This document shows, one piece after another, positions 32,500 through 34,137 of a DNA stretch of 64,000 bases (within the stretch, counting starts at the first letter, position 1; the number at the start of each line of letters is the position of its first letter). The DNA is from Croceicoccus mobilis (lineage in GTDB: Bacteria > Pseudomonadota > Alphaproteobacteria > Sphingomonadales > Sphingomonadaceae). The stretch is from contig NZ_LYWZ01000025.1 of the NCBI RefSeq assembly GCF_001661965.1, forward strand, positions 1 through 64,000, read 5' to 3'. The notes under the pieces were generated by a model, which was not told the DNA's origin, did not search any database, and worked only from the letters and a program-made list of their open reading frames with translations. A program made the translations under genes and the position numbers.

Positions 32500-32959
32500 G
32501 CCACTTGACCCCGCCCCCGAATCCCCCTAAGGGCCGCGCCAACCGCAGGTAGGCCATCCTTCAAGCAAGGATTCCCTCACGCGGATAGAGCTGAACATTG
32601 CCGGTGAGTGGGGCGGTCCTGAATGGTCCGGGCCTCGTTATCCGTCAAAGTAACCCGGCTGGACCCGGGTGGAGCGTTTCGGTTCGTGCGATCTTCGCCT
32701 CCGGCGGCCTTTATATGTAGGCCTGCCGCCATGGCGGTTTCGGCACGTCCTTTCCTCCATCTCCCGGACAATCCGAACGGCGGCTCGCGAATGAGTTTTT
32801 CGCCGCTCTCACCCATTCACTCTGGTGCGGGGGAGAGCGGAACCTCATCGGGGAGGGCGGTAATCGCTCTCCCGCCCGGATGAGGTGACCCCGGACGGGA
32901 AACCTCCCGTTCGGAAAAGTGACGCCGGGCCATCCGGCCCGGAAACAAGGAACGTATAA
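32500..32959 (+). promoter_or_regulatory. Long structured leader upstream of rpsL (460 bp, no gene)
   Basis: Several stems lie close to rpsL. CCGCTCTC (32803-32810) pairs with GAGAGCGG (32833-32840), but GGAGAGCG (32832-32839) can instead pair with CGCTCTCC (32865-32872). A nested stem uses CCTCATC (32843-32849) with GATGAGG (32879-32885) and GGGCGG (32855-32860) with CCGCCC (32872-32877). A 10-bp stem covers 32891-32914, and CCGGGC/GCCCGG covers 32925-32942. No strong -35/-10 pair was found by eye. Confidence 0.6.
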
Positions 32960-33331
32960 ATGCCTACGATTAACCAGCTGGTCCGCAAGGGCCGCGAGCC
33001 GCAGAAGGCCAAGAGCAAGGTTCCTGCGATGGAGCAGAACCCGCAGAAGCGCGGCGTCTGCACCCGCGTGTACACCACCACGCCTAAGAAGCCGAACTCG
33101 GCACTTCGCAAGGTGGCCAAGGTGCGCCTGACCAACGGCCGTGAAGTCATCAGCTACATCCCGGGCGAAGGCCACAACCTTCAGGAGCACTCGGTCGTGC
33201 TGATCCGCGGCGGTCGTGTTCGCGACCTTCCCGGTGTGCGTTACCACGTGCTGCGCGGCGTTCTGGATACGCAGGGCGTGAAAGACCGCAAGCAGTCGCG
33301 TTCGAAGTACGGCGCCAAGCGTCCGAAGTAA
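32960..33331 (+). CDS. rpsL: Ribosomal protein S12
   Basis: 123 residues, full length. S12 lies at the decoding centre of the 30S subunit. [39 protein letters not shown] and [11 protein letters not shown] are family signatures. Lys43 is present, but residue 88 is Arg (codon CGC at 33221-33223), where E. coli and Mycobacterium have Lys; K88R elsewhere gives streptomycin resistance. AAGG is 9 nt before the ATG. First gene of the str operon. Confidence 0.99.
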
Positions 33332-33379
33332 GAAGCTTTTTTTGGGGGTGCGGATCGGCCATCCGGCCGCTCCTCGGTA

Positions 33380-33456
33380 CCAGCCCGTCTCCCCCACCCA
33401 ACCACCCGATGATCACCGATAACTTATCGGGTGGTTGGGTGGGGGAGACGGGCTGG
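33380..33456 (+). repeat. Perfect 31-bp inverted repeat between rpsL and rpsG
   Basis: Bases 33380-33410 are fully complementary to 33426-33456, with a 15-nt loop. The left arm begins CCAGCCCGTCTCCCCC and ends ACCACCCGAT. The loop region can form a smaller competing hairpin, CCGATA (33416-33421) with TATCGG (33425-33430). The right arm ends 34 nt before the rpsG ATG and has no T run after it. Possible roles are RNase III processing, mRNA stability or attenuation. Confidence 0.9.
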
Positions 33457-33490
33457 AGCCGCCCCTGAACTCCAAAGGAGTACGGATAAA

Positions 33491-33961
33491 ATGTCACGTC
33501 GTCGTCGCCCCGAAAAGCGCGTCATCCTGCCGGATCCCAAGTATGGTGATCAGGTCCTGTCGAAGTTCATGAACAACCTCATGCTCGACGGCAAGAAGTC
33601 GGCTGCCGAGAAGATCGTCTATGGCGCCCTCGAAACCGTCGAGGCTCGCGCCAAGGCCGATCCGGTGCAGCTGTTCCACGATGCCCTTGGCAACGTGATG
33701 CCGCAGATCGAAGTCCGCAGCCGCCGCGTCGGTGGTGCGACCTACCAAGTTCCGGTCGAGGTTCGCCCCGAGCGTGCGCAGGCTCTGGCCATTCGCTGGC
33801 TGATCACCGCGGCCCGCAACCGCCCCGAGACCACCATGGCCGCCCGCCTGTCGGGTGAGCTGATGGATGCTTCGAACAACCGCGGCAACGCCGTGAAGAA
33901 GCGCGAAGACACCCACCGCATGGCCGACGCCAACCGCGCGTTCAGCCACTACCGCTGGTAA
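33491..33961 (+). CDS. rpsG: Ribosomal protein S7
   Basis: 156 residues, the standard length. S7 organises the head of the 30S subunit and often represses the str operon. [48 protein letters not shown] is the conserved start, and the protein ends in AFSHYRW. AAAGGAG at 33474-33480 lies 10 nt before ATG 33491, which overrules the in-frame codon at 33431 inside the hairpin. Confidence 0.99.
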
Positions 33962-33970
33962 GACTTGTGG

Positions 33971-34014
33971 AAAGACGCGGTCGTCCGGGCTAAAAGCAGG
34001 GCGGCCGTGTCTTT
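33971..34014 (+). other. Hairpin between rpsG and fusA
   Basis: AAAGACGCGGTCGTCC and GGGCGGCCGTGTCTTT can form a 16-bp stem counting G-U pairs. It starts 9 nt after rpsG and has no T run. It is probably a processing or attenuation element rather than a full terminator. Confidence 0.55.
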
Positions 34015-34137
34015 CACCGGTCACATTTATCACTATATGGGGCGCATTCGGCTCCGTTGAGAGTCGACAGCAGAGCGAAGGCCGGGATCGGCACGCCACG
34101 CTGTTTAAAGCTTCATACTCACCCCGAGGAATTTTCC

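Follow-up and report, generated by a model that had tools for sequence, protein, structure and literature searches.

Our study revealed that the perfect inverted repeat lying between rpsL and rpsG in the str operon of Croceicoccus mobilis belongs to a dispersed family of palindromes, an identity that is well supported by sequence comparison. We hold with moderate confidence that this copy is an old MITE-like palindrome insertion, retained in the rpsL–rpsG leader, where it would act as an mRNA processing or stability hairpin. The comparison likewise supports the dispersal of the family, its presence/absence polymorphism at one site, its recurrence in this spacer and its linkage to a hairpin that pairs the Shine–Dalgarno sequence of rpsG. 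Elements of this kind, palindromic, MITE/REP-like and dispersed, are already known from operon spacers, and the open-licence literature that was searched described neither this family nor its linkage to a Shine–Dalgarno hairpin before rpsG. In bacteria, REP- and MITE-like repeats are usually treated as selfish, scattered DNA; in the present case a single family can be traced at one site of an essential operon across 152 loci, through gain, loss, replacement and a linked Shine–Dalgarno hairpin, and paired changes in its stem of approximately 33 bp are seen in several orders of the Alphaproteobacteria. With natural alleles of one operon on offer that carry the element, another repeat or a short linker, the question of selfish insertion or recruited regulator becomes directly testable.

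Results

The window is the whole stretch of DNA that was analysed, 64 000 nt (64 kb) in length. Within it, rpsL (S12, 123 aa, the upstream cistron) was called as an ORF at 32960..33331 on the + strand, and a homologue was found in 142 of 149 genomes of the family at E ≤1e-50. The downstream cistron, rpsG (S7), lies at 33491..33961 on the + strand, as given by its ORF frame and an RpsG protein match; it was the protein match that placed the start at ATG 33491, the frame in the ORF list being longer, with its start at a GTG further upstream. The next gene is fusA. As the preliminary description had reported, the rpsL–rpsG spacer contains a perfect inverted repeat of 31 bp, with arms at 33380–33410 and 33426–33456 and a 15 nt loop (33411–33425). 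When mismatches are allowed the stem reaches 33375–33461, with 36 nt arms that are 94 % complementary. A scan for perfect inverted repeats of ≥12 bp with loops of 3–60 found two in the 64 kb window, of 31 bp and 14 bp. The RNA fold of 33340–33500 was estimated at −112.2 kcal/mol (z=−11.5), a value reached by 0 of 200 dinucleotide shuffles, and the full hairpin (33375–33461) folded alone at −81.0 kcal/mol. The description had also held that the repeat has no T-run and is not a plain terminator, and this was borne out: no T-run was found 3′ of the long stem on the + strand and the hairpin is absent from the terminator scan list, and an intrinsic terminator was rejected. Rfam gave only matches below the gathering score in the window, mostly to miRNA hairpins, as any long hairpin may give.

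Two small hairpins flank the long one, both additional to the features first described. The upstream hairpin, at 33352..33373 on the + strand, folds with eight pairs and one mismatch and carries the tetraloop ATCC at 33361–33364. The downstream one is a Shine–Dalgarno hairpin before rpsG (ACTCC-AAA-GGAGT, 33469..33481, + strand), with a fold of −5.1 kcal/mol. Between them the long family hairpin (33375..33461, + strand) was recovered by the fold and by our covariance model, R1, with a match value of 6.8e-12, to be read in light of this copy being one of the 33 in the model. A T-tract followed by GGGGGTGC at 33337..33351 on the + strand is probably the degenerate left boundary of the element, judging from copies compared by eye, several of which have TTTGTTGGGTGCG or TTTGTTGCGTGCG at this position. 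The element would then comprise a small hairpin, a long hairpin, a second small hairpin and short outer repeats, with the inverted repeat as its central hairpin of 31–36 bp.

Similar copies in many genomes ruled out a one-off palindrome. The spacer query matched 19 of 60 genomes by BLAST (E ≤1e-4); in 12 of these, that of the window included, the hairpin itself was matched, in some at many places, and in the other seven only the end of rpsL. R1 had matches in 109 of the 249 genomes examined from the window's family, in 57 of 96 genera, and several of these genomes had at least 18 R1 matches, i.e. at least about nine places. The preliminary description had proposed a search for other copies of the arms, and these proved numerous in some relatives but not in the window's own genome, where R1 found a single place (150 candidates scored) and the other BLAST matches were partial, of 17–22 nt (E ≤10). 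A two-arm pattern recovered at least 119 stretches in named genomes, also outside the Sphingomonadales. Among the 80 loci listed, 43 were Sphingomonadales, 15 Rhodospirillales, four Minwuiales, three Kordiimonadales, two Acetobacterales and one Maricaulales, with 11 unplaced and one filed as Bacillus. The last, L107, has the hairpin on a record labelled Bacillus sp. 2B10, which is possibly a misnamed or contaminated contig. Among plasmid records, a separate search found three.

The copies share the long hairpin, frequently flanked by small hairpins (on one side or on both), between lineage-specific outer sequences; the repeats at the outer ends were seen by eye only and are degenerate in the window's copy. 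Among 20 stretches taken from the surroundings of copies at other sites, the hairpin was found in 17, and four copies elsewhere in one genome (L347–L350) have flanks of the same kind as the rpsL–rpsG copies. By a rough ORF rule, 31 of 82 copies lie between tandem genes, 12 between convergent and six between divergent ones, 10 within an ORF, and 23 too near an end. In L124, L105, L098 and L103, from other orders or genera, the long hairpin was seen between ends such as CTAGAGC..GCTCTAG; these resemble the ends of IS630-type MITEs, which habitually target TA/CTAG.

The family stem of ~33 bp covaries. In the alignment of 33 copies (A1) 96.1 % of the cells are paired, and 96 double-changed cells were counted against 29.9 in shuffles and 4–18 in slid controls; the inner stem has many more double changes than G-U pairs. 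Copies in A1 and R1 were picked by similarity, 13 of the 33 rows by a pattern fixing part of the stem, and the stem conservation is therefore partly built in, whereas the pair swaps are not.

Evidence of mobility came from one site. A copy in genome G232, at a site other than this spacer, is absent from the same site in its congeners G181 and G114, where the flanks adjoin, in G181 by coordinates and in G114 by coordinates and sequence; G272 has an insert of other length there. Presence/absence polymorphism at orthologous sites is thus documented for the one site examined, and the family is, as expected of MITEs, short, dispersed and present in several copies per genome, with one copy in the window's genome. 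The G232 copy is flanked by a 19 bp direct repeat with two mismatches, and over 101 copies there was no clear sign of a general target-site duplication, long direct repeats being scarcely more frequent than in the control (score of ≥10 in a fraction of 0.09 compared to 0.08).

The rpsL–rpsG spacer was compared across 152 loci, 13 of them from the window's genus (its own included), after the duplicate L318 had been dropped. Labels were assigned by hand from folds and hairpin lists, after the spacer ends had been seen, and gave 33 loci with the family hairpin (F), 20 with a CGTC-like repeat (R) and 99 with neither. Two unrelated repeat classes therefore occupy this spacer. Six F loci hold two long hairpins. 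Within the genus there were five F, four R and four loci with neither, and the element is dispensable, since eight of the 13 are without it. The comparison of relatives' spacers proposed in the preliminary description thus had a divided outcome, with absence in eight of 13 congeneric loci, yet strong covariation. R1 alone matched 31 of the 152 spacers, at least seven of them rows of the model itself, and all inside the hand-labelled 33; the other two (L205 and L244) are degenerate and had no R1 match in the spacer. Named loci with the hairpin in the spacer include Qipengyuania flava, Pontixanthobacter sp. CEM42 and an uncultured Altererythrobacter, all Erythrobacteraceae. Among the R loci, the repeats of L013, L014, L015, L016 and others resemble CGTC-type REPs, that of L015 having CGTC, a ATCCCCGC/GCGGGGAT stem, a 5 nt loop and a CCA tail.

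A tree of rpsL and rpsG, built by a quick method, placed all 33 F loci inside one clade of 72 loci, probably the Erythrobacteraceae. The F state required 19 changes on this tree, at least 10 of them on starred branches, compared to a shuffled mean of 29.8 (0 of 500 as low), and the R state required 16. These numbers indicate that changes of spacer type are frequent within the clade and that descent alone does not explain the distribution of the element. Whole genomes with few copies were also informative. Thirty genomes with a known rpsL locus had one or two R1 matches, which were counted as a single place read on both strands, and in 15 of them the place was the rpsL–rpsG spacer; coordinates were checked for these 15, one of which (G124) has a second weak place as well. 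The whole-genome R1 search was run on the F genomes with few copies, 26 of the 33, and 24 of these matched in the spacer, 16 without any other match; G100 and G165 have two R1 matches each, both in the spacer. The remaining two, G077 and G136, are hand-labelled F and had no R1 match in the spacer, G077 having none in its whole genome and G136 two elsewhere.

Within the spacer, the left small hairpin mostly has the loop ATCC or GTCC and the right one GGAT or GGAG. The right GGAN hairpin was present in 21 of 33 F loci (≥7 of 9 Watson–Crick pairs), was weaker in L252 and L279 and is absent from the window's copy (5 of 9 pairs), in which the left one is present. A Shine–Dalgarno hairpin of 5–7 bp, the 3′ arm of which is the Shine–Dalgarno sequence of rpsG, ends all 33 F spacers but only one of the 119 others; with labels from the model only, the counts are 31/31 and 3/121. 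It reads ACTCC-GAA/AAA/AGA-GGAGT in 31 F spacers and occurs in compensated form in two, as TTTCC-GAA-GGAAA and ATTCC-GAA-GGAAT. The sole non-F spacer with this hairpin, L243, also keeps the small hairpins and is an apparent F remnant. The motif ACTCC-nnn-GGAGT was found in 0 of 20 stretches around copies at other sites, and the 14-mer CACTCCGAAGGAGT occurs 20 times in 149 genomes, by coordinates 19 times at the rpsL–rpsG spacer and once elsewhere (G105). The Shine–Dalgarno hairpin therefore belongs to the locus and not to the dispersed element. The predicted median unpaired probability of the Shine–Dalgarno core was 0.21 in the 33 F loci and 0.44 in 117 others (Mann–Whitney p=2e-12, among related loci and uncorrected for kinship).

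Discussion

The reading we prefer, an old insertion retained as a processing or stability hairpin, takes up an earlier suggestion of a recently inserted palindrome in part. Insertion is upheld by the dispersed family and the polymorphic site; recency is contradicted, because five of 13 congeneric loci and 33 of all 152 carry the element and the stems have diverged much yet remain paired. In one clade, probably the Erythrobacteraceae, the spacer copy appears to have been kept as part of a structured intercistronic leader, of which the hairpin pairing the rpsG Shine–Dalgarno sequence would form the last piece. The long duplex in the str mRNA would offer a target for RNase III and a block to 3′ exonucleases, and the transcript would split into an rpsL part and an rpsG–fusA part, with a stable hairpin at the end of the one and at the start of the other. 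Translation of rpsG would then start from its own weakly masked Shine–Dalgarno sequence, and not by direct coupling to rpsL. All 10 genomes examined, that of the window included, encode RNase III, an enzyme that requires some 20 bp of duplex, and the uninterrupted duplex would lie in the transcript on the assumption that transcription crosses the spacer, which makes an RNase III or stability function plausible. An analogy may be drawn with the REP between malE and malF of Escherichia coli, likewise a palindromic repeat between cistrons of one operon and thought to protect the upstream mRNA. A precedent is found in Neisseria, where duplexes formed in transcripts by the Correia/nemis MITEs can be cut by RNase III (PMC10969869). 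Those elements are likewise short, dispersed and bear inverted repeats; they differ from the present family, which occurs in other hosts and has one central hairpin of 31–36 bp with small flanking hairpins, and for which RNase III cutting is only putative. Given a 31 bp duplex, an encoded RNase III and the Neisseria precedent, we put transcript splitting at the head of the readings, followed by neutral tolerance.

As a rival, neutral tolerance has to be taken seriously, and we regard it as a possible account: a selfish palindrome would have landed in a permissive spacer, its arms kept alike by quasi-palindrome correction at replication, and would play no role in expression. It accords with the polymorphism of the copy at the other site and with a spacer that, among 152 loci, is occupied by the unrelated R repeat in 20 and free of both repeats in 99. 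It also accords with the way in which the long stem changes. Selection for RNA pairing should favour GU over AC mismatches; long stems at the locus have the two in balance (42:34, p=0.42), and so the long stem bears no mark of RNA selection. This, with the excess of double changes over G-U pairs in the inner stem, suggests that the long stem may be kept only by correction at the DNA level, from arm to arm. Against neutral tolerance stand the 15 of 30 single-place genomes that keep the element exactly in this spacer, the Shine–Dalgarno hairpin that accompanies it (33/33 against 1/119), and the right small hairpin. The right GGAN hairpins have double-sided changes at nine of nine pairs and a GU:AC ratio of 8:0 (p=0.008; 20 distinct but related rows, and a second cut of overlapping data), which suggests from sequence comparison that this hairpin acts as RNA. 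The set consists of rows with ≥7 of 9 pairs, a selection that inflates its pairing figures but has no preference between GU and AC; of 34 rows 22 qualified, one of which (L243) was left out. When all small hairpins that a single rule detected were counted, the ratio was 7:1 (p=0.07). Compaction of the spacer does not count as evidence, because shuffled F spacers fold more compactly: exterior unpaired nucleotides numbered 15 in F spacers, seven in shuffled F spacers and 10 in R spacers, and we dropped the idea of a spacer collapse that holds the stop and the start near each other.

A tentative extension of the preferred reading, no more than possible at present, joins these patterns. A mobile palindrome may have been domesticated, within a single clade of bacteria, as the core of a ribosomal-operon leader, in which the long, the GGAN-loop and the Shine–Dalgarno-masking hairpins would set the output of S12 separately from that of S7 and EF-G, the long stem being corrected between its arms and the small hairpins evolving as RNA.

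The preliminary description had proposed that a smaller hairpin competes for the upper stem and forms a switch responsive to S7, in the style of the E. coli str operon. Such a hairpin exists on the loop side (33411–33436), but at −8.8 kcal/mol against −81.0 kcal/mol it is about 72 kcal/mol weaker than the full hairpin, and the proposed switch is not supported. The position speaks for it: S7 control in E. coli works through coupled translation in the same rpsL–rpsG spacer, with structured RNA before rpsG (PMC10931766), and a Shine–Dalgarno hairpin is present here as well. The structure of the E. coli S7 site is described as not obviously conserved elsewhere (PMC10931766). In the present case the leader is built on a dispersed element that is missing from 119 of 152 loci, the long stem shares its sequence family with copies at unrelated sites, and searches of 11 related loci, including six with spacers of this kind, gave no Rfam match at the gathering score. 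We consider an S7 switch improbable.

Slightly more doubtful again is a REP element mobilized by a REP-associated tyrosine transposase (RAYT). The family is palindromic, lies mostly outside genes (by rough gene calls) and occurs in many genomes, in which it resembles GTAG and CGTC REPs, and the window's genome encodes one Y1 transposase. Among 12 high-copy genomes, however, PF01797 was matched in three (G064, G190 and G068) and in the other nine there was no match at E ≤1e-5. The stem of 31–36 bp is much longer than the 6–13 bp of GTAG and 8–9 bp of CGTC REPs given in PMC3733652, and neither tag stands at the foot of the window's hairpin. In the text examined, the GTAG/CGTC-family paper does not contain the names Sphingo-, Novosphingobium, Erythrobacter or Caulobacter. 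The Y1 gene of the window's genome is IS200-like (G000:C12:227555-227911); Y1 was found in five of 24 genomes, most relatives being without it.

The least probable reading, a CsrA/RsmA target in which a hairpin loop bearing GGA precedes a masked Shine–Dalgarno sequence, drew on the likeness of the GGAN tetraloop and the Shine–Dalgarno GGAG to paired CsrA sites, which have GGA-type motifs, and was rejected for the genomes examined, unless a diverged CsrA exists, as PF02599 was matched in 0 of 28 genomes (three of 14 control genomes match) and the window's copy is without the GGAN hairpin.

Further observations were made in and around the operon. The G-rich arm of the inverted repeat, GGGTGGTTGGGTGGGGGAGACGGG (33429–33452), fits a canonical four-tract G-quadruplex motif; its G-tracts are mostly constant among the aligned copies and the bases between them change in pairs, a pattern partly forced by the selection of copies. 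The rpsG–fusA spacer (33962–34137) has a hairpin of its own and a block, GGTCACATTTATCACTATATGGGGC, the last part of which (ACTATATGGGGC) is identical in the nine loci of the genus compared; this is possibly an internal promoter or a leader of fusA. Upstream of rpsL, at 32843–32885, lies a CCTCATC..GATGAGG hairpin with a variable inner stem, common to G000, G004, G009 and G011 and to L186 from another genus, which could represent a leader of str or a further dispersed palindrome.
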